Origin: Pestalotiopsis fici W106-1
Lineage: Eukaryota; Ascomycota; Sordariomycetes; Amphisphaeriales; Sporocadaceae
Reading direction: 5' to 3'
DNA: 64,000 nucleotides
Assembly: GCF_000516985.1 (NCBI RefSeq)
Contig: NW_006917099.1
Location: forward strand, 62,001 to 126,000
In this document: piece by piece, positions 376 to 28,580 of the stretch
Layout: the number at the start of each line of letters is the position of its first letter
How positions within the stretch are numbered: the first letter of the stretch is position 1
Program-made: the position numbers and the translations under genes
Notes under the pieces: model-generated
What the model saw: only the letters and a program-made list of their open reading frames with translations
Told to the model about the DNA's origin: nothing
Database searches by the model: none

Positions 376-1451
376 TTATAGGACTTTCAGGACAGCGAAT
401 GTTACAATGGCGAACCCAATGCTAAAGCTCAACGTCGTCCCGCTTAGCGATGTCCCCAGGCTGCGCTCATTCTCACTGGCCATGGCCACACCATCGCCGT
501 CCGCGTCCCGTTCTTCAAGTTGAGTTGTGTTAACACGCATGCAGTGTAACTCAGGTCCCCCAATGTACTCATTGCCGTTGCCCGTAGGTATCTGCGCATT
601 GAACATGAGAATGTGCAGCTTGTTCACTGCTAGGAGGTAATCGTCGCTGAGACTGCCGTTCAAGTCCCTCAGAATGTCATACTTGAAGCCCTTGCCATTG
701 GTCCACGGCCTGCTGGTCTCATTGCTGCTAGCGTCAAGGCCGCCGAGGGCATAGCCTGTGCCGTCCATGCCCCAGTCGGCTGCGTCTCCGAGGGAGTCCT
801 TGCAGGCCGACAGCAAGTTCCACGGTTCTGCAGGACTACTGCAATAGCTGCCGTTGCCCGCCGCGCTGATGGCGCCGCGCTGCAGGATGGCGGCGACGCA
901 ATCTTGGCCGAGCGCGGGTACGCAGCTGGTGCTATTGGCGTCGTCTTCAGTGTACCCGTTCAGGACGCTGACGGGGAGGTCCAGGCTTTCCACAACGCTC
1001 ATGCAGAAGCTCGAGTTGGCGCCGTCCAGAGCCTCCGAAAGGTCGTCCCCATAAGGCCACGTGAAGTCATATGTTGTGCTGACCACATGCGGGTCAGCGA
1101 GGTCATTGTCTTCTACCTTGGGGGTTGCGACGTCGCTGATGTTGACTCCTGTAAAGTATGACAATTAGCAGTCAGATCCAGAGAAAGACACCGCACTCGT
1201 GGTTACCTACGCCACGTCCACTCCGAGTTCCGCACTACCGAGTCTTCTGGCAAGGAAGACCAGTATTCTTCCAGCATTCCAAACTTCACAGAGCGTGTAA
1301 CCGTAGGATTACTTTTTGCGTCGATGACCGGGTCCCTTATATCTTTATCAAGTTCTGTCATGGAAGTTTCAAACCATCCTGACACCATGTTGGTGAGGTC
1401 AGCTACCGCAACCGTTGCCAGGAGCGGGATTATGACCAAGCTTCGGGACAT
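376..1451 (-). CDS. Secreted, probably GPI-anchored protein, paralog A
   Basis: Two exons, 1451-1211 and 1148-376, joined by a 62-nt intron (donor GTAGGT, acceptor ACAG), give 337 residues. The ATG at 1451 opens a signal peptide (MSRSLVIIPLLATVAVA). The C-terminus is a hydrophobic run after a small-residue stretch (LGTSLSGTTL), as expected of a GPI-attachment signal. The middle has several N-glycosylation sequons, paired cysteines, and an acidic DADGDG motif like a calcium loop. Exon 1 is exactly as long (241 nt) as in the paralog at 7003-8069 and the intron sits at the same residue, so the two are duplicates. I do not recognise a named family; a cell-surface role is inferred only from targeting signals. 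Confidence 0.8.
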
Positions 1452-7002: not shown

Positions 7003-8069
7003 TCACAGCACTCCCAAGCATACGACCAAAGTGAGGAAGACTCCCATGACACATCCGATGAACGGGTCAGTGATTGACGTGCCCACATTCCGGATGTTTT
7101 CGCTTGTCATCGCATCGCCATCCCCGTCAGCGTCATTTTCTGGAAGCTCAGTCGCATTGACGCGCATACAATGCAATTCGGGTCCTCCAACAAAACCGTA
7201 ATCCGTGGGTATGCGGGTGTTAATCATGAGAACGTGGAGCCGGTTGACACTCTGGAGGTACCCGTCGCTGAGAGATCCATTCAGGGGCTCCGACACGTTG
7301 ACGAAGAAACCTTGACCACTGACCAAAGGCGACGAGGTCGCGTTGTTTTGTCGATTCACCCCGCTGAGAGGGTAGTCCCCATAAAGCGTGCTGAACACTG
7401 TTGCTTTACCAATGGAATCGCTGCACTCCAGCAATTCGCTCCAGAAATAGCGTGGTGGTATGCACGAATTCCCATCATCTGAGATGGTGGTAGCACCGTT
7501 GCCGGCCAGGAGGAGGGAATCAATACATGACTTGCCAAGAATGGGCTCGCAGTCGGTACTGTCGTCGTCGTCGGTGTACTTATTTATAATCTCTACCGGG
7601 AGGTCGATGCTAGTCAGAGTAGCCATGCAGAAGGTTCCATCGGCGCCGTCGAGTGCCTCTGACAGGTTGGTCCCTGTGAACTGGAAATCGTAGATTGCGC
7701 TTGCCACGTGCGGTTCATCGACGTCCTCCAGGTCCGCGTCTGGTATCGACACGTCGCTTATGTTGATTCCTACGTGGCACATCAGTCAGTTGCAGCTCCG
7801 CTAATAAGCCTCGTCCGAATCTACTTACGCCACATCCACTCCGAGTCTCTCAGCTTCGAGTTCTCTGCCAAAGAGCCCCAGTATTTCTCAAAAGGCTTGA
7901 ATGCTACCGAACGCGTGGCGGTAGGATTGTGGTTTGCCTGAATAATCGCATCTCTAGCTTTCGGGTTTAGTTGGTCCAGCGCCGATTCTCTCCATCCTGA
8001 AATTTGACCATAATCGCCAGCAACAGCACTTGCAGCCAGTGCCAGGAGTGAAAAAAATATCCGACTCAT
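7003..8069 (-). CDS. Secreted, probably GPI-anchored protein, paralog B
   Basis: Exons 8069-7829 and 7769-7003 (donor GTAAGT, acceptor GTAG) encode 335 residues. Start chosen at the ATG at 8069, which opens a signal peptide (MSRIFFSLLALAASAVAG) and makes exon 1 the same 241 nt as in paralog A; the longer upstream frame has no signal peptide. Shared blocks with A include NPTATRSV/NPTVTRSV, LSEALDGA, LNGSLSD, GGPELHCMRVN and the acidic DADGDG loop, and both end in a hydrophobic GPI-type tail. Six or more N-glycosylation sequons are visible. Function unknown; the pair probably arose by local duplication, with two unrelated plus-strand genes in between. Confidence 0.8.
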
Positions 8070-11623: not shown

Positions 11624-13796
11624 TCACACAAGCAAGATGTCTTGCTCTTCGATGCCCAAATTCTCCACCTCGCCATGCATCATGTCATGAACATACGCCT
11701 GGCCGATTATCTGATAATTCGCACCCTCAGGATTACTACAACGCAGTACATGCGGCGTCTTTGCATAATTGAGCACACACACTTTATCTCCCTCTTGCAG
11801 ACTCAACGGGCCAAAGCCAAAGCGACCCATCGAGGTCATGAAGGGCCTTTTCCCCATAAGGAAAAAAGCACTATCACTCATGTACTTGATGCAGGGTGTG
11901 TTTGGGCCGATAAGTCCCATGGCTTCCTTGTCAGCCTCGATTATTGCAGGGTCCAGAGGACCGGCAAAGGCACACTCGTGAAGTAGACTAAAAGGAACCA
12001 TAAGCAGCAATCGAGATGGGGGTTTGATCATGCATGTCGACTTACATAAGACTGTCAAAGTCAACATCTAATTTTTCCATTAGCTCAGCCCAACGAGCGA
12101 GGCTCACTTTGAATGTCCGGTATGTCTCGTACGTCAAAGTGTAGCGTACCCTTTCCGTCATGTCGCCCACAAGCGATCGCCAATACCCGTCAAGCGTGAA
12201 CCTTACCCGACCTTCATCCTCCTTGGTGCACATCGTCGTTGGGTCGTCCGGCAGGTTGTCAACCTGGTCGCCCAGAACAGCCTTGGCTAGCGATTTCTCC
12301 CAAGCATGGAATCTCAAAAATCTCTGCTTACCTTCCTCAACAGAAGTGAGCTGGTCTTTCCATTTGATGACATCAACCAACTCGGGAAGCAATGTCTCGA
12401 CGGTATCGAAGATCTTTCCACACACAGAGATCGCGCGGGGGTTTTCTGGCAGTGGCGGAACTCTCTTTCCGCGGCTGGCATCATAATGATGTTTGGCAGT
12501 AGTCGATGCTATGTGTCGCTCAAGAGGGAGTAGCAGCTCTTGGGGATGCGTCGGGCTGTCGCCCAGATTGTGGTAATCGGGACACCAGCTGGGTAAGCCC
12601 GCCCTTTTCTTCTCCGAGGACCATGCAAGAGTGAGGAGGTACCACCAATTCATCGCTGATGGGTTCACGTTGGCCAAAAGAAAGCGCGTCAACTTGGTGT
12701 AGAGCTCCCACGCGTCCATGTCTCTACCTATCCCGACTCTCTGGAGATCCTGTCCGGAGAAAAAGCCGAGGATTCCGAACACTCTATCCCGAGCATCATA
12801 ACAATGATGATTTCTGGTTGTAGAAACGAGCAACCTCATCAGTGCGAATGGTACTTCTTGTGGATTAGCAAGGCTTTGGGTATATTTGCGAATGTCGAAC
12901 ACAACTTCGGTCCCGCCAGGCAGAGGGAGAGGCTTGAAGCCATTGGCATCCCGAAGGCGATGGCGCAAATCTGGGCCATTCCGCACGGCATCGTCAAGCA
13001 CGTCCCATGGTATCTCCCCATCTCCGTACAGTACTCTGATGTGCCTCGCCAATGCAGCCTCTTGAACGATCCACAGCCGGGAGAAATAGTTGTTGTTGAT
13101 GATCTTGGTCACAGCACCCCATTGTGGCGAGGAAAATGCCGGCAAGCCTTTGTCCACAGGCGAGGCCTGATCGAATTCCCAGGCTTGACTCATGACCTCT
13201 CTGGCTACCGCGCTGACCTTTGGTAGCAACGAAATGGCTTCGTCTCCATGTTCCGGGTCACAGCCCAGCCACACCCAAACTTGAGTTGCCTGACGGTAGA
13301 TGCTGTGCATCATGTTGATCTGAACAAATTTCTCTTCCCCATCAGACTGGTTGATACAAACGGCATCAATCCATAGCGGCAGAGACGAGCGCCGCCTAGC
13401 GAGATAGGGCAGAGCATTCTTCAGATTTCCGTGGATCCGGAGTTCGGAGTCGTTGCATCGAAAAGGAAAGGTGTGGCCAAGGTCGCCCCATGTGTAGGAA
13501 AGCGCGTCGAACTCTACTGATGCATTAGGGCCTTGCTCCTGTATCTGGACAGTCTTGAGAGCCCATACAACGATTCCATCACGAATAGAGTGATGAAGCA
13601 GTCGGATCTCACCGGGCTTGAGAGGAGTATACCGAAAAGGGACTGTCATCATGGAACGTGAAAGGTGAAGAAAAGGAATAGAGACGGTTGTTCCGTTTCG
13701 TGGGAGCCTGGTAATGTCATCGGGCCCAGTGAATTTGGGGGCCAAGCACCCATGTCTATTGCCCCTCTCTCCTGGGCAATGATTGGCTGTGCACAT
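11624..13796 (-). CDS. HET-domain (heterokaryon incompatibility) protein
   Basis: Exons 13796-12046 and 11987-11624 (donor GTAAGT, acceptor TTTTAG) give 704 residues. The HET domain is clear: PLKPGEIRLL near residue 55, FDALSYTWGD near 97, LPLWIDAVCINQ near 140 and QVWVWLG near 172. HET proteins trigger cell death or growth arrest after fusion of unlike cells; many are standalone and unpaired. The C-terminal exon (…GANYQIIGQAYVHDMMHGE) matches the common tail of fungal HET proteins. The first 48 residues before MMTVPF are low in recognisable motifs, so translation could begin at 13652 instead. A 704-residue length is normal for the family; no lesion is visible. Confidence 0.88.
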
Positions 13797-16127
13797 GATC
13801 CGTGGTCAGGGTCAAGATGACAGGGTAATGTGCTGGGTGAAAAGTCTCAACGGGTAACGCTCCTATTCTTGACAAGATGGAACCGAATCTTTCTATTCGG
13901 ATCCCGATCATCCTCGATAGACATTCGATACGAGACTCACCTATGATGACTGAATGTCAGAATAAGCGAAGAAATTGAGACGATGTGAAAGTATCTCATT
14001 GGGCTACAAAATGCAGGCACAGAAAAAATATGTTCCTAGGTAGTGTATTCAGCTTGACCTTGCGTACACTGGCTGTGTACAATCAGAGAAAGATGCTGTT
14101 GCACCCATGGGTTAGCAACAACCATTTTCCAATGTCTTGAGTTGGGTACTGCCCCGATGGTTTGCTAGACTTCTCGAGTTCGTATACTAACTAAGTCCTG
14201 AACATCACTAGTCTTACACCTTAAAGTGACGAGACAATTGGGTAGCTAATACTGCTGTGGGACATTGACGACGGCTCTATTCAATGCTTATCGTGTCTCT
14301 GACTTACTTGCTCGGTTTCCTTGGTTTTGTTTGAGGCGAGGTATCTTGTCTTCAGCGTCGTCCATTGTCAGTTTCTGGATAAGTAGCAATTCGCATTATC
14401 GAAAATGGTGAACTTTAAATTAGGATTGAGCGCAACGAGTCTGCAATTCGTTCGAGTCGTGGTAACGTCAATTCATAGCAACAAACCGTTTTTGATAGAA
14501 AAGCTTTAAATCAGCTGTTTATATCTAAATGCAATTATATTGCCTACATCTTCCAATCATATCTTCCTGAGTCTAAGTGACATTGCCGAACTTGGATTAG
14601 ACTTGCGGCTCCGATTCTACTAATGCTGCAGCGATTTGGACGTCGTCTTTCGGCTTTGCTTTTTGCTTTCGAGCGCCACATATCGTAACTAAGTCCTGTC
14701 ATTCTTGGGTACCCCTCGTCGCTTCAAGTGTTGTTCCGTCGGCCGTTGTCTCATGTAGCCTGCAATCCTGGAGTAATTATTTGAGCGCAAATGGCTTTCA
14801 ATATTTCAAAATTGCAACATGATATGCTAGGACAAAGTGGATTGTCAAAGCATCAAGGTAAGGCTGTGCTTGCCCCAAGGGTTCTACAAAGTACAAAATT
14901 TTCTCTTCGACCTGGTGGCTAAAAGCTCCGACATTTGTAGTGGCTGGAACATTCAGAGGCAGAGGCCCAGCGTCTCAGGCGGCGTTCGCTAGTTTTGGTA
15001 TTTTTGACAGGATGACGGCGGTTTGAACGCAGTATGCCGCTGACATGAAAAATGATCAAAAAAATAGCTGCGTTGTACCGCCTCAGGAGTAGAAGAATGC
15101 TGGAATTGAGACGAGAGGTTTTCGACTTATAGGACTACTTTGGTCGACCTCTGCAACACCTCAATCTTCCTGTTTCGGAATGCTGCACAGATGCTAGGTA
15201 TTAGCTAACCTAGGTTAGTACCTAACTAACCTAACCTACCTACTATAAGTGATATGGTACCTTACAGGTAGGCTGCCCGCCTTGTTCAGCGTTTTCCCAA
15301 ACAGACCCAACGTATATTCCATCGCTTTCCTCACAATCCAATGCAGCACTGGATGGATATATTTAAAGAAAATTCAATTGCCATATACTTAGCACAAGAC
15401 GGAAATTCTCCTACCTCGTGGGCTCTTGAGACACTGACTTGTCGAAATATATGACCTCGGTAACAGGTTACAGCGACATGCACGTTAGCTGGATTGCAGT
15501 TAGCGCACACCATGGGTGGAAACCCGCCTTAGCCAATATACATGTGGCCTATTAGGCGGGTACCTACATACCTAACCTAGAAACTTATTGTAAGAATATT
15601 TCCATAACTGGTTGACTTTGAATAATAAAATGATATAGGTCTATAAATTAGATCACATTTCCATGCCCTAAACAAAAATGATTAGCAAAGATGATTATAT
15701 GCCTCCCAGTCTTAGCTCAAGAGCTACCTTTCATTGGGACCGTGGACTCTCTCCTTAACACGACGAAATACCTACCATCCATTCTCCCTTAGAAACTGCA
15801 TTGATTGTGCTGATTTGGCCAAAGGTGAACTTTTTGATTGGAAATATCCTTCCAAATTTGCGTGACACATTGAATTGCTTTCGCAGTTGCGTCCAATCGG
15901 CTGGACAGAGCCCCTCTCCCGTGTTGGTGGGGGATGTTGCCTGCTGCTGCCTGAGCCAAAACGTCTCCGCCTACTTGCCGTTGCCTGAAGAATCACGACC
16001 ACCACAGAACGAAAACGTGCCCTGTAAAGAATATAAAACGATCAGACATTGCTATAGTCTCTCGTAGTATATCAGGGACTGGAAGAAAGAAGATTGAACA
16101 AGGTCAGCTCATACCACAACCGAAGCA
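13797..16127. other. Gene-poor intergenic stretch of 2.3 kb
   Basis: No frame here has recognisable motifs. From 15195 to 15245 and near 15560 there are runs of TACCTA/TAGGTTAG-type short palindromic repeats. The segment separates the divergent HET gene and the DUF7730-like gene, so both promoters lie within it. Confidence 0.4.
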
Positions 16128-21417: not shown

Positions 21418-24400
21418 TTATGATCCCAAGTTCACTTGAACCACACCTAGCAATCCTTCTTCTTCCTCAATCAAGACCATCCACCTGACTAGGAGTTCCT
21501 GTACCAAAGTGGAGATCTCGTCATTGTTCCAGGAGCGGCCAGATCTGGTCCACTTTACAGTATGGTCGTAAATGGTTTCTTCGTATGTAGTTTCCTCCCA
21601 TGGACCTATCACGTCGCATGTTAACCCTGCCTCTGCGTCATGAAAAGTGCGCAGACTTCATCACTCACCAGAATTATCTGTTCTTCTTGACCGTTGCGCA
21701 AGCCTTTCTTGGATGTATGCCGCAATTGTGTGGGGCATGACCTCCTTTGCACGAAGGATAAACCTGTCAAAGCACCAGCAGAGTTCCATGACGTATATCG
21801 AGTCAGACATCGCGTCCCTCGGCTTTTCACTGTCGTCTGCAGGGATGTTGTTAGCACATCGTATCACGGGGGTTTAGCTGGTGAAGCAAGCGTATCGTGG
21901 CTTGAGGGGCAGGACAGAGTGGAGTAGCTTTCTGGCCTACCTTCAACAAGTTCCCAGGTCAGACCCATGGACATCTGCACTGTGATGAAGAACTCGATCA
22001 GTGCCTCTCTGGGCAGCTCGGCTGTACGACGAGTTACGATCCTGGCAGGTGTTAATTAGAATGCCTCCGACGCGGGTCGAGTACCTACCACAACGGAATG
22101 CCGATCTGTTCCGAGCTCAAATAAGCACCAAGGTTGCGCATGTACTCGTATGAGCGTGCCGTGTTTCGCCGGAAGCCAGCCGTTATAGTCCTCAATTCTG
22201 ACTCTTCAAACCTGAATCTCTTCAGCTGCAAACCCAGACCATCGAGGGGCGTAGAGCCGTTCTTGTTGATGAGATTAGGGTTGAGCTCCTTGCCGATGCT
22301 CTGGAAGTGGTCTCTGATGATTTCAATGGCAACAGCATTGGAGCAAAATGCCGCGTAGTGAAGTGTACTGCTACCCGTGTTATCCGCTATCTCCAGATAC
22401 TCTTTTCCAGGGAACGTCCGCAAAAGCAGCCTCAATGTGGCATAACCGGTTGGGTTGCTCCCCATGCTGTCTGTATTTGGGTGAGCAGTGGTGGGCATCC
22501 ACAATTTGTGTCAAGAATAGACTCACCATGTTGCGTCCCCATTACAGCATAATGCAGTAGAGTCCTGCCAAGTGAGTCAGCAATGAAACGTGGTCGAGGG
22601 TTCATCTCGATCAAATATTCCATTTGTTCGAGAGTGAAGAGGTTGCTCATGATGGCATTCTCAACCATGTATGCAGTAAAGGTCATCGTGGTTTCCATTC
22701 GATTAACCATCTTGCCTTCATGTGAGATCAAGTCCATGTCGTAATCGAGATTGTAGCGAGTTCGGATATGCTCAGCAAATTTCAGATGCTCTTTCGCCCC
22801 TTCGATCAAGGCTGTCATGAACACGGTGTGATCGTCATGGCTCTTGGTGTTGAGTATGGTATATATGTCCATTCCTTCCGGACAGGGTAGGCTGCCATCT
22901 TCAATTGCGTTGATGAGTTTGAGTAGGAGATCAGGAAAAAATCTAGCGGCTCGATGGAAAACAGTGAGACCTTCCACCCTGTCCTGTATCATAGGGTCTG
23001 CCCCACGGCGCAGGAGAAGGAAAGCGACTTCGACTCTTCCGCGCTCTGCGGCCCAGTGAAGGGCGCTCATGCCGTTCTGGTCGTCAACCTCATTTAGGTC
23101 TGGGGAGTTGGTAGCGTCCAGAACGGCGGATACCATGTCTACATGTCCCTGGTAGCATGTGGAGATCAGTGGGTTTGTTCCCTGGCTGAACTCCGATAGA
23201 GAGAAGTGCTCCAACATCTCAGGATCCATGAGGAGATTCACCAGTTCTGTCAACTTGCTCATGGCTGTAGCTCCCCCGATACGTCGTCGAAGGAAATCGT
23301 TCATGCCGCAAATCTGTTGGAAAGCTTCAACCTTGGCTTCACCGAGAGACTGGTCAGGCCTCGTCAGACTAGCTGCTCCGCTCAAAAGGCTTGAATCATG
23401 GTTTTGGTAGATCTCTCGTATAAGATCCACATTAAATGCAGCGGCGGCAGCTGTCATTGGCGTCCATAAATCCTTTGATTTTACGACAGCGGTTGCTTTT
23501 AGGCCCACCAGATATCGTGCGGCATCGCCGTTGCTGAAATCCCACCCGCAGAATGTCGACAACAAAGGTGTGTTCCCGCTCGCATCGCGTATCTCAAGAT
23601 CAACAAGACCGCCCTTAGATGAGATTTCGAAGAGTCGCACAAGATCAGCAGTGTCTCTGCATTGGTTGAGGAAATGCAAGATAGTACGGCCAGTTTTGGT
23701 ATCTCGGTGGGTTGCATCTGCTCCATGTTCGAAAAGAAACGAAGCCACGTCAATATTGCCAGATGCGCAACTAATCCAAAGTGGTGTGTATGATGGCGTA
23801 GTACCAACATAATCGACTTCAGCGCCCAAATCTAGTACCAGAGTCTTGGCCAGCTCTAGATCTCCCATAGCAGCGGCCCGCTGAAGTAATGTGACGGAAA
23901 ACAAATCTGCCTTCTGGACGCATTTTAGTTTCCGGACGGATTCGATGAAGGACGCTTTTTGACTCAGTTGGAACTTCTCGTGAGGATTGTATCCCTCGAG
24001 AGAGTCCGAGTCAAATCTATCCTCTTCACTTTTTGTTTGACCTTCCAACGAAGACTGGATCGCCAGAATGTAGATGCCAAGGCATGTTATCTTCAGAGAT
24101 CCATAGATAGAAGAACACAGGTACTCATTGTACTCCCGTGGGTTTGACCGAATCCACTGCCGCAACGCAGTAAATGTTTGCGGCTGCGATATCTTATTGC
24201 CATGTACATCACTCAAAGATACCAGCAGTTCATTACTCGCAAGATCTGGCAGCTTTGAGCGGGTAATCGCGTCGATATCGTGGGGTACACGAAAGCCCAA
24301 CGATGAGAACACTGGTTCCAGGCTCGAGATGCCCTTGGCGGACTGTTTGAAGTGTGCAGTCTTGAGCCACTGGAGGCCCTGCTCTACATTTCTCGAAGTA

Positions 24401-26265
24401 CCAATGCCCTCAAAATGAGCAATCGCGAGCTGGAATGATGCCTCTGCTGAGACGCTGGTTGAAGACTCTTGAACTTTGCAATTCAAATCCTCAACCAATT
24501 CTTTGGCAACCCCTCTGGGAAGCGTGAAATGGGCGTACTTTGTTGTGTATTCGAACTAAAAGAAAATTAGTCCTATATTATTTGATATGATGCAGCCTTG
24601 TGTGTGCATACATCCGGCAATGCAGATAAGAAATCACGGTTATCGCTCTCTGAAGCGACGTTCCTCTGAGTGTCCAATAGCCCTGCAACTCTCGATATGG
24701 GCTGAACCTCCATATATTTTGGTTTCCACAGGTCTTCGAAAGGATCTTTCAACAAACCCTACAATGAATCAGCGCGTCATTTGCTCTACCAAGACCAGAA
24801 GATCTTACCATTCGTTTGAGGACTAATCGCAGTACAGATAGGAGTCCAGACTTGACAGCACCACGAAGTACATTGAGCGGTTTCATGATGATTGAAAAAC
24901 CTTGGCTCGCAATATTGACCATATTCCACCACAATCCACCAGGCGGATTTAGTTGAGGCGATGCGGCTAGCGGCTTCTCTGAGTGAGTCTCTTCAGGTTC
25001 GCTGTTATCAGCTTCAGCAGTAGGATGGCTGTTGATGATCTTTAGCAGCCTTTCTCCTTGGCGATAATGAACCTAATTCTTTTTGGATCATTGATAACTC
25101 ACTCTGTAAATAATACCCCGAGAAGGATCAGCTGGGGTCCAATTAGCCGAATCGGGAATCTGTGCTCGGGCTTATATCTCAGCGTAACCAATAGTGTTTT
25201 ATTGATAAGTAGTTGTTGACTCTCCGTATATGCGACTCGTTCAAAGATTTTTGTTTTCAGGAAATCAACAAGTCTCATCATTGCGTCCTCATCTCGCTTC
25301 ATCTCGCGGGTCTTATCAAGGATGAGACTTTCGAAAGGGTCGCCACCATGCATGTAGATTCTGCTGAATAGCAACCCAAAGCTGAAGATATCTGCCTGGG
25401 GAAGATCGTCTACCTTGACCTTGGTTCCAAATGTCAGTTCGGGGGCGGTCCAGGGTTCGGTTCCAAGTCGCGCGGAAAACATGGCATCGTTGTCATAGTC
25501 GTTCATGATGACAGAGAATCCAAAGTCACAGAGCTTGGCAACATACTTGCTCTTGTCGACTTTTGTGGTATCTTGTTCTTGGAATATCAGAACGTTCTCT
25601 ACCTTCAAGTCGCAGTGCGCTATCCTGTGGTTGTGTAACACTGCGAGTCCTGAGAGAATATCGAGATTTAGATCGAGTTTCACCTTCCAATCGGCTATGT
25701 CTGCGGATTGCGCCATGAAGGCAGCGAGGTTTCCATGGTCTGCTGCTTCGAGTAAGAGACGAGGCCAGTAACGGCCCCCTCTCGGGAGCTCATCCCAGGC
25801 GACACAGAGCAATTGTACCAAGCATTTGGTCTGCTTCACTGTCCTGTTTCCAAGGATGCGCACTTCATTGGTGATTGCGGCTAGCTGTTGAGCGTCACTG
25901 ACAGACTTGGAAAGAATAGGCACGATCTTTTTGGTGACAAACTTGCGGCTCAAGAGGTCTTTCTCTAGCTCTTTCCCTTTGCTGTTATTAATCGAAGCGT
26001 GGTCGTGACGGATGAGAGGTCGAGTGACACCATACGAAGCTCCTGTCCCAACGAATACATGGTCTTGTCCCCCGGAAGAGTTCGAAGAATTATTGAGCAC
26101 AGGTATGTTCAATCTGTTGACCAAACTGAAGAACGCAGCCTGGCCGTACAATGTCCTGGTGGTCTCGGTTCGGCGCAGAACTTCTGCATCTGGAGATACA
26201 GTGTCAAAATCATACTCAAACAAGCTCAAACTAGTAACACTCGTGGGAGCATTTGGATCGTCCAT
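21418..26265 (-). CDS. Protein kinase - Sel1 - ankyrin-repeat protein, 8 exons
   Basis: Eight exons keep one frame for about 1475 residues: 26265-25117, 25072-24809, 24758-24612, 24555-22527, 22470-22089, 22041-21941, 21836-21669, 21605-21418. Residues about 75-380 are a Ser/Thr-kinase fold: FVTKKIV lysine motif, HCDLKVENVL catalytic loop (His217, Asp219), DFG at 247, and a GTEPWTAPE activation segment, so it looks catalytically competent. A Sel1-like repeat (ASFQLAIAHFEGIGTSRNVE) lies near 555-590. Ankyrin repeats run from about 740 to 1270 (TPLWISCASGNIDVASFLFEHGAD; MSALHWAAERGRVEVAFLLLRRGADP). The last three exons add an acidic tail. The 44-nt intron joining kinase to the rest (donor GTATTA) is the weakest junction; if unused, kinase and ankyrin would be two genes. 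It faces the HeLo gene across 482 bp. Confidence 0.78.
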
Positions 26266-26747
26266 ATCTGGCGGTATCACACTGGATTCTGCGGACAGGT
26301 GTTCTTCACAAAATCGGAGAAACGACCATGGCTGCAGTTTGGGCAGCTACGCGCAGAGCTGGTCGGATGACTTGGCATCCCGAGGGCTGAGACCACATTG
26401 CAGTTTGCGGCTGAGAACCTGGCTTGGCGTGCCGATGTGTACAAACAGGGTACAAACAGTCTGAGCAGCTCAGCTCAGCCAGCCATGTTCTCCATGGGCG
26501 TTAAATAAGCTCTGCCAACACCTGTTCTGCCTTAACCCCGCTTTTCCGTCTCGCTACAATATGCTTTGCTCCTTCCTGCAATCAGCCCAGCACGCCCAAA
26601 CCACTGCTTTTTGTTAATTACTTGTTATTCGCGGGTCGTCACGAGCCAAAGCCCATTGCTGGACATTATCTGGGCAGAGACATTTCTCGCGCGACGTAAA
26701 GTGATTCTTCTTCTTCTTTATATTTTCCTGGCAACGACCCATTTGAC
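26266..26747. promoter_or_regulatory. Shared divergent promoter of kinase-ankyrin and HeLo genes
   Basis: 482 bp lie between two ATGs pointing away from each other, so the genes may be co-regulated. A TTC triplet run (near 26706) and a TTTATATTTT stretch lie 30-45 nt before the HeLo ATG. No defined operator is recognised. Confidence 0.45.
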
Positions 26748-28580
26748 ATGTCGGGGCTCGAAATACCCGCCTTTATCGTTGGTCTAAGTGGCCTGATTTC
26801 TGTTGTGGAGAAACCCTTGACGATATGGAAGAGTCTCGCCGAAGCAAAAGCGTTTGGTGCTGATATGACAGGCATCGTGGCACAATTATCAATGGAGTAT
26901 TACCGATTCTTTGCCTGGTGCCGAGTCTCAGGAGCTCTTCAGGAGAACACGGGCGATGCTAACCCAAATCTACCAAGCGATGCCGAACTGTCATTTAATA
27001 ACAATGCATCATTGAGTTTGGAGGCACCAATAGAGAGTGCCATCGCCAGAATTATTGATATTTTAACCGAAGTCACTGAGATCTCAAACAAGTACAGAGA
27101 TTCGGATACTTCAAGCGTGAATCCTACAACGAGAAAGCCAAACACCAGTGTTGCCCACGCTTTGAGTACTGTGTTACCTCTTGTTGGAGCCAAGCACAAC
27201 TCTGGGCTGGTCTCCAAATTGGTACAACAGCGGCAGGCTGCGAATGTGCTACAAGAAAAAACCTCCTTCAGGCTTCGCTTCACATTCGGGTCCAAGCCCT
27301 GGGGCGAATCAGACAAGGTTGCTCTAAATGAAAAGGTGCAAAAGCTGTGCTACTGGAACGATCGGCTTGAGCGAATCATACCAGGCACTATACGGTCTAC
27401 ATTGAGCAGCCAAGCTTTACCTGCACATATGCTCGCAGACGAGAACCAAAAGATATTGGACACACTCATAGAAGCTTCTCAAAATGATAAAGTGTCTGTG
27501 AGAACGCATGGAAAGTTGTGGCAGGAGCGACTAAAGTTTGAAAAGGGAGTTTCCATCAATGCGAGCGACTGGGAAAAGTATAGACGCACGAACTCGTCAA
27601 TTGATGAAATTGAAGGGTTTGGGAAGAGTACTTGCTCAGTCACTCTCAAATTATTCAAAGACGGCCAAAAGCGTGAGTGGGACTTTGCATTTCACATGAA
27701 AAGACCAGCTTCTAATTCTGTAAATCTAGCACCATACATCTGTGTCGTCGAGTGGTACTCGTATGGAACGCTTGACTGGACCAACGACGACGTGCAAATC
27801 GCCACTAGCCGCATTGCAGGACTCGTGCACATGTCATCTCAACCCGAAATCCCGCAGAGTCTTAGGATTCTCAAGGGTCTTTGCTTTGTAGAAACATCCG
27901 ACGCAGTTGGACTAGTCTGCAAAATTCCTGATGCCGCCAATCATTCAAAGCAGCCTGTGTCCCTAAGTTCTCTTATGCGAAAGGAAACTCAAGTCGCGAC
28001 CGGCTTCAAGCGACCCAGCTTGGAGAGACGCCTTCAACTTGCCCAGGACCTCGCGAGCGCCATTTACTCCTTTGGCCTTATCCGTTGGTTTCACAAAGAC
28101 TTCAACTCGCAAAACGTCGTGTTCTTCAGGGACAAGGCAGAACCTGCCGCGATCCTCTTCGACTCCCCCTACATCGCAGGCTTCTCTATTGCACGCCCAG
28201 ATACTGCCGCGCAAAAGTCGCTAGACGTGAATCGTGAGGCACAAGCAATATACATGCATCCCGATCTTCGCAGAAGAGAACCCAATGACAGGCCGCGATA
28301 TCACAGGAAATACGAAATGTATAGTCTGGGGCTAGTGCTGTGCGAGATTGCCATGTGGGCCACGATCGATCGCATGGCTTCAAGCATGTTGGAACCCGAA
28401 GCCTTCAAAAGCAAGATAACCAAGATCTGCGAAGAGGACATGGGATTCTTCGTGCCAAGAAGATATTGTGACCTTGTCGTGCGATGTCTCAAATGTGCAG
28501 ATGATGCCGATGAGGCAGCAAGTTCTTTAGACACTCTGTACTGGTCTGTTGTGCTAGAACTTGCCAAATGCAGATATTGA
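26748..28580 (+). CDS. HeLo-domain protein with C-terminal pseudokinase-like domain
   Basis: Single exon, 610 residues. The first about 230 residues match the HeLo (prion-inhibition and propagation, HET-S N-terminal) helical bundle: MSGLEIPAFIVGLSGLISVV, KAFGADMTGIVAQLSMEYYRF, and a later KVQKLCYWNDRLERIIP helix. HeLo bundles permeabilise membranes in HET-S, HELLP and related cell-death proteins. The C-terminal half has a degraded kinase fold: LQLAQDLASAIYSFG, a loop HKDFNSQNVVFF near residue 448 that keeps Asp and Asn, but AGFS (near 477) where DFG is expected and no glycine-rich loop or clear VAIK lysine. Domain order resembles animal and plant MLKL (helical bundle then pseudokinase). No amyloid motif is obvious. 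Confidence 0.82.
   Translation: MSGLEIPAFIVGLSGLISVVEKPLTIWKSLAEAKAFGADMTGIVAQLSMEYYRFFAWCRVSGALQENTGDANPNLPSDAELSFNNNASLSLEAPIESAIARIIDILTEVTEISNKYRDSDTSSVNPTTRKPNTSVAHALSTVLPLVGAKHNSGLVSKLVQQRQAANVLQEKTSFRLRFTFGSKPWGESDKVALNEKVQKLCYWNDRLERIIPGTIRSTLSSQALPAHMLADENQKILDTLIEASQNDKVSVRTHGKLWQERLKFEKGVSINASDWEKYRRTNSSIDEIEGFGKSTCSVTLKLFKDGQKREWDFAFHMKRPASNSVNLAPYICVVEWYSYGTLDWTNDDVQIATSRIAGLVHMSSQPEIPQSLRILKGLCFVETSDAVGLVCKIPDAANHSKQPVSLSSLMRKETQVATGFKRPSLERRLQLAQDLASAIYSFGLIRWFHKDFNSQNVVFFRDKAEPAAILFDSPYIAGFSIARPDTAAQKSLDVNREAQAIYMHPDLRRREPNDRPRYHRKYEMYSLGLVLCEIAMWATIDRMASSMLEPEAFKSKITKICEEDMGFFVPRRYCDLVVRCLKCADDADEAASSLDTLYWSVVLELAKCRY

Follow-up and report, generated by a model that had tools for sequence, protein, structure and literature searches.

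In a 64,000-nucleotide stretch of the genome of the ascomycete Pestalotiopsis fici W106-1 (contig C9, positions 62001-126000; hereafter, the window), two genes lie head to head. One of them encodes a protein kinase with ankyrin repeats (PFICI_11485), and the other a protein having an N-terminal HeLo domain and a C-terminal pseudokinase (PFICI_11486). Both are already in GenBank as hypothetical proteins. We consider it probable that the two genes constitute a module in which the repeat-bearing kinase controls the HeLo executioner via the pseudokinase, in a manner resembling RIPK3-MLKL and not by amyloid seeding. We observed the domains and their folds, which catalytic residues are kept or lost, and the recurrent physical linkage of such genes. 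Gene order was read directly in one genome only, that of P. fici (51.7 megabases (Mb) in 20 contigs; C9 has 2,598,408 bases). The available part of the published report describes the assembly of this tea endophyte as 52 Mb with 15,413 genes (PMC4320822).

A kinase gene facing a HeLo-pseudokinase gene

The start codons of the two gene models are 482 base pairs apart, as had been stated in a sequence-only reading of this DNA, and the region between them (26266..26747) is probably a shared divergent promoter. The HeLo-pseudokinase gene occupies 26748..28580 (+). Its 610 codons are open throughout, as that reading had it, but a 57-nucleotide stretch (27673..27729, +) starting with GTGAGT and ending with CTAG is missing from the 591-amino-acid GenBank protein PFICI_11486. 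This stretch is therefore a probable intron, and the spliced product of 591 amino acids is likelier than that of 610.

The HeLo bundle proposed for the N-terminus proved firm by sequence. Amino acids 11-217 (26778..27398, +) matched the Pfam HeLo profile (PF14479) with an expect value (E) of 9e-13 and 48.9 bits against a curated cut-off of 23.2 bits, and also matched the solved HET-s HeLo domain. Searched on its own with Foldseek, the HeLo domain had no match at E 0.001, and an unrelated bundle headed the VIA rows for this domain. The AlphaFold2 model of the whole protein (predicted local distance difference test (pLDDT) 69, predicted template modelling score 0.70) has an N-terminal helical bundle, linker helices and a C-terminal pseudokinase, and the fold matches agree with it. 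The N-terminal hydrophobic helix of this model, amino acids 5-32 (26760..26843, +; pLDDT low at residues 1-12), is expected to be the membrane-attacking helix. In 8 out of 10 proteins tested, the N-terminal 19-mer exceeded in hydrophobicity every 19-mer starting past residue 40, the exceptions being the homologues P0003 and P0004.

The C-terminal kinase-like domain was found to lack DFG, as claimed earlier. Amino acids 266-610 (27543..28577, +) matched DUF7580 (PF24476; E 6e-7) with 29.8 bits against a curated cut-off of 27 bits, and the GenBank copy carries the same label. The DFG equivalent is Ala477-Gly-Phe (28176..28184, +), where the lost Asp is replaced by Ala in the window protein and by Thr or Val in its five full-length homologues, P0002-P0006. 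The beta3 Lys is absent in the alignment and in the model. The catalytic-loop equivalent, His449-Lys-Asp451....Asn456 (28092..28115, +), which had gone unmentioned, keeps the HRD-like Asp and the Asn (HKD....N); both residues are conserved in the window protein and P0002-P0006 and replaced in paralogues. Ser480 and Ser491 are conserved candidate phosphosites in the activation-loop equivalent, and Ser491 (28218..28220, +) is invariant among the same proteins. A profile of the HeLo-pseudokinase family, compared with solved chains, matched MLKL best, weakly (E 0.0088, 5 of 8 rows MLKL; 6.3e-5 in a second run).

The kinase gene (21418..26265, -) follows a GT-AG model with its ATG at 26265, its stop at 21418 and eight exons (26265-25103, 25049-24809, 24758-24612, 24555-22527, 22470-22089, 22041-21941, 21836-21669 and 21605-21418). 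The gene is real, and the product, given before as 1475 residues, is 1472 amino acids in this model and 1465 in the GenBank copy (99% identical). Two of the three domain types assigned to it stood in Pfam: a protein kinase domain at about amino acids 73-354 (25204..26049, -; Pkinase E 4e-22 over amino acids 118-354), and ankyrin repeats in exons 4 and 5 (approximately 22089..23850, -; Ank_2 E 1.4e-32, four stretches). The Sel1 assignment shrank to a single weak repeat, amino acids 554-584 (24355..24447, -; E 3.6e-4), under the curated cut-off (21.4 vs 30.7 bits). The Podospora conica homologue has one Sel1 repeat above the cut-off (35.3 bits).

Homologues outside P. fici were searched with ~8000 candidates scored per search. 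The kinase gave 13 matches, seven of which were accepted as its family, namely the GenBank copy and six homologues from Podospora, Schizothecium, Cudoniella, Dactylella, Aspergillus and Fusarium; the other six align in the ankyrin or kinase parts only and were left out. The kinase residues are Gly73, Gly75, Lys112, Glu134, His217-Asp219, Lys221, Asn224, Asp247-Phe-Gly, Pro275-Glu276 and Asp292, and the Gly-loop, beta3 Lys, alphaC Glu, HxD...N, DFG and APE were identical in all seven rows. The partner kinase thus looks catalytically competent, its activity being predicted from these conserved residues. The Aspergillus heterothallicus homologue (P0015) is annotated as a single protein with a deuterolysin metalloprotease, and probably represents two genes merged by the gene model.

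We also looked for signs of amyloid signalling, which the earlier reading had discounted. Local alignments with shuffles of three kinase regions against the HeLo protein, a crude test, revealed no amyloid-type motif shared by the pairs of all three species compared. Prion-forming C-terminal repeats of the HET-S type, shared with the partner N-terminus, were not found; the C-terminus of the HeLo protein is the pseudokinase.

Recurrence of the pairing

A conserved neighbourhood had been named as a check on the module, and the kinase/pseudokinase pairing recurs in P. fici and, by equal contig sizes, in two other fungi. Both homologues of Podospora conica are on contigs of 450,955, and both of Schizothecium vesticola on contigs of 5,190,215; the same-contig placement is judged in either case from equal size and species name.

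In P. fici, matches to the window HeLo protein together with those to a paired protein of contig C10 gave 14 pseudokinase places, of which 13 were kept. The place at C10:1136 (L065) was struck from the count, since its frame has HGD and DFG and is an active kinase. Eight of the 13 places are head to head with a kinase gene (the two matches divergent and <3 kilobases (kb) apart), two are fused to a kinase, and three (C1:2976, C2:5048 and C9:2567) are neither. The divergent pairs are the window pair and those at C2:5404, C3:581, C6:973, C9:475, C3:3136, C10:148 and C9:178. We observed HxD and DFG in seven of the eight partner kinases; in the remaining one (C9:474), we saw HRD and APE but not DFG. 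From the density of 109 merged kinase loci in the genome, ~0.3% of genes would be expected to have a divergent kinase within 3 kb, as against the observed 8/13, and raw binomial values overstate the independence of these places because the pairs are partly paralogous.

A recognised HeLo domain together with a pseudokinase was found in six genes, three of them paired. Pfam places DUF7580 at 29 sites. Three of these, each also carrying HeLo, have a divergent kinase no more than 3 kb away, and two are fused to a kinase. Kinases near the DUF7580 places C10:2408 and C1:3402 were discounted, being on the same strand, in separate frames and not divergent. A divergent kinase accompanies 3/5 HeLo+DUF7580 genes vs 0/24 other DUF7580 places (Fisher p 0.003, window pair counted), and chance adjacency is already made unlikely.

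The partner kinases were compared by BLASTP. The window, C2 and C9:178 kinases are mutually similar and all have ankyrin repeats; the two best relatives of the window kinase within P. fici each belong to another pair as its kinase, and each has ankyrin repeats in the adjoining frame. The C6, C10 and C3:3137 kinases form a second class, to which the C9:474 kinase is assigned only through its short second part and its partner protein. In the third class, the C3:581 kinase is closest to the kinase halves of both fusions. The C3:580 pseudokinase matches the unpaired C1:2976 protein best, and is also similar to the pseudokinase halves of the fusions. A split pair that resembles fused genes on both sides is a classical sign of proteins that work together. 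The fusions themselves, at C1:2668 and C7:3525, carry an active-looking kinase and a DUF7580 pseudokinase in a single open frame (L029 1-2178 and L034 1-2172; frames of 961 and 779 amino acids). A hidden HeLo core between these two parts was rejected (hhalign probability 0.65%).

Four of the divergent pairs (L061, L062, L063 and L064, on C6, C9, C3 and C10) have a kinase facing a frame of 515-566 amino acids, made of an unrecognised N-terminal domain and a pseudokinase (HKN, GFD/GFE). These frames are 33-37% identical to each other lengthwise. Neither Pfam (four frames, two spliced N-termini) nor hhalign detected HeLo in the N-terminal domain of this second group. In the eighth pair, a pseudokinase (L066 1204-2400, -; HKS, GFD) faces a kinase (L049 757-3392, +) related to that of the window, with ankyrin repeats in an adjoining frame. 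As a separate observation, the C6 partner kinase (L061 3-1352, -) runs on, in adjoining frames, into a P-loop-like stretch and a weak match to AIG1/dynamin-like GTPases.

Proposed mode of control and competing explanations

The layout of an MLKL-like module, a HeLo bundle and a pseudokinase with a kinase encoded next door, stood as first proposed. The trigger, the sign of control, the action of the kinase in activation and phosphorylation, and the killing are what we infer. The ankyrin-kinase would serve as a sensor-transducer whose repeats bind a trigger and switch the kinase on. At rest, by analogy with MLKL and HET-S, the pseudokinase, joined on by the helical linker, would restrain the HeLo bundle together with the hydrophobic helix at its N-terminus. 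The active kinase would engage the pseudokinase, most likely phosphorylating the activation-loop equivalent, for which Ser480 and Ser491 are the candidates. The freed HeLo domain could then assemble at the plasma membrane and breach it, and the two genes would be co-inherited as a regulated cell death module without the amyloid seeding of NWD2-HET-S.

As in RIPK3-MLKL, the pair behind animal necroptosis, the executioner joins a membrane-targeting helical bundle to a pseudokinase, the active kinase is separate, and the Protein Data Bank profile matches are led, weakly, by MLKL. The MLKL pseudokinase is also without the DFG Asp. Unlike RIPK3 and MLKL, the P. fici genes are adjacent and divergent, and the kinase has ankyrin repeats. 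The pseudokinase further differs from MLKL in lacking the beta3 Lys and keeping the HRD-like Asp, and the N-terminal domain is a HeLo domain of the HET-s family. The likeness is one of layout, and one-to-one descent is not implied. The NWD2/HET-S and HELLP-type pairs of NOD-like receptors (NLRs) and HeLo proteins are alike, in the available accounts, as two-gene clusters of a HeLo executioner and a repeat-bearing partner. However, the P. fici partner is a kinase and not an NLR, and the executioner ends in a pseudokinase instead of an amyloid prion-forming domain. Plant MLKLs and Pm13 (HeLo or four-helix bundle plus kinase-like domain) have the same domain order, whereas the portions of the literature available describe no linked partner kinase for them. 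Fungal HELL-kinase/pseudokinase proteins are noted in a review (PMC12881547); in contrast to the present case, its available text mentions neither an ankyrin kinase nor a pair of genes in which the kinase is separate, and DUF7580 does not occur in it.

Several observations weigh against the control of a HeLo executioner by the kinase. The match to MLKL is weak, and the 50 structural matches listed do not include MLKL; the second pseudokinase group gives no MLKL lead, HRI and RAF leading instead. In 5 of 8 pairs, no HeLo was recognised in the N-terminal domain (four tested by Pfam or hhalign; C9:178 not tested). Half of the six HeLo+pseudokinase genes (C1:2976, C2:5048 and C9:2567) are without a divergent kinase, and at 24 of the 29 Pfam DUF7580 places there is neither a divergent nor a fused kinase. 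The pairs are partly paralogous, with about three kinase classes in all, and the second genome query, the C10 protein, is itself a member of a pair. In the searches outside P. fici, no HeLo-pseudokinase partner was found among the matches for the kinase homologues P0013-P0016, and no kinase partner for the HeLo homologues P0002, P0003 and P0006. Finally, one of the nine comparisons in the amyloid test, in P. fici only, gave an unexplained excess of similarity: the score between the C-terminal 120 residues of the kinase (21418-21840, -) and the HeLo linker (27114-27311, +) was reached by 0/200 shuffles, and was not seen in the two other species.

It is also conceivable that the kinase restrains the HeLo-pseudokinase as an antidote, so that death follows loss of restraint or, in fused cells, allele mismatch (heterokaryon incompatibility). 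Tightly linked divergent pairs in several divergent copies fit such systems, the HeLo gene has a heterokaryon incompatibility (HET) domain gene at a distance of ~13 kb, a HET domain also occurs in fusion with one DUF7580, and heterokaryon incompatibility is listed among the expanded P. fici families in the part of the genome report available (PMC4320822). However, every inspected catalytic residue is kept in distant kinase homologues, which is more than a passive antidote needs, and such homologues occur where no HeLo partner was found. We consider this explanation unlikely. The same conserved residues, in the kinase gene and its six homologues, argue against a kinase acting purely as a scaffold, whose ankyrin-driven clustering would cluster the pseudokinases by contact and without phosphorylation. 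The one-frame kinase-pseudokinase fusions suggest that direct contact suffices, and the JAK1 pseudokinase is among the structural matches; on balance, we regard a scaffold as improbable.

There is little reason to expect that the proteins signal without killing, with the HeLo domain only targeting membranes and the pair regulating something else. To our knowledge, HeLo toxicity has been shown for few proteins, and the sequence of the N-terminal domain did not resemble HeLo in the four pairs of the other group that were tested; against this, the hydrophobic N-terminal helix is kept in 8/10 proteins tested, and DUF7580 fuses to HET and subtilase domains. That the two genes are chance neighbours, for which one could cite gene order read in a single genome and the 24/29 DUF7580 places without such a kinase, is scarcely credible given that, of the 13 places, eight are in divergent pairs and two in fusions, and given the Fisher p of 0.003.

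The module proposed here would join the HeLo executioners that have a linked regulator, its new features being a kinase in the regulator's place and a pseudokinase as the switch. The available parts of reviews present fungal HeLo executioners as NLR targets through amyloids. We found no description of kinase/HeLo-pseudokinase gene pairs in the portion of the open-access literature available, which is not proof of absence, and no open-access paper on DUF7580 by that name. If the kinase acts on the pseudokinase, fungi have the RIPK3-MLKL logic in the form of two-gene cassettes. How necroptosis-type control arose could then be tested in a genetically simple organism, and DUF7580 would gain a function. 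More tentatively, and as a possibility that we stop short of calling probable, filamentous fungi may have a necroptosis-like pathway of their own that is driven by kinases and runs alongside NLR-amyloid signalling without depending on it. It would consist of families of divergent gene pairs in which an active kinase, bearing ankyrin repeats, a GTPase-like part or another sensor, sets off a membrane-attacking bundle by way of a pseudokinase as switch. If so, the split and fused forms in one genome would make kinase-pseudokinase control of HeLo-type killers a general, repeatedly duplicated fungal immune design.

DUF7580 in other settings and the surroundings of the pair

The frames of 9/29 DUF7580 loci were scanned for their domains, others being covered in a separate frame scan. 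DUF7580 is fused to a HET domain at C1:1837 (L012 1306-3981, -) and to a subtilase at C9:1083 (L013 1723-3039), and adjoins a subtilase frame at C1:3402 (L010 910-4068). According to the available text of the review (PMC12881547), HET domains and S8 proteases are part of fungal regulated cell death. Judging from these associations, several cell-death systems of fungi seem to share this pseudokinase as their switch.

Within the window, the HET-domain gene is at 12045-13805 (-; Pfam 9e-28), 7.6 kb from the kinase gene. Further away, the frame 7006-7785 (-) had no Pfam match; it and the frame 376-1164 (-) are alike by eye and perhaps represent a local duplicate of a secreted protein.

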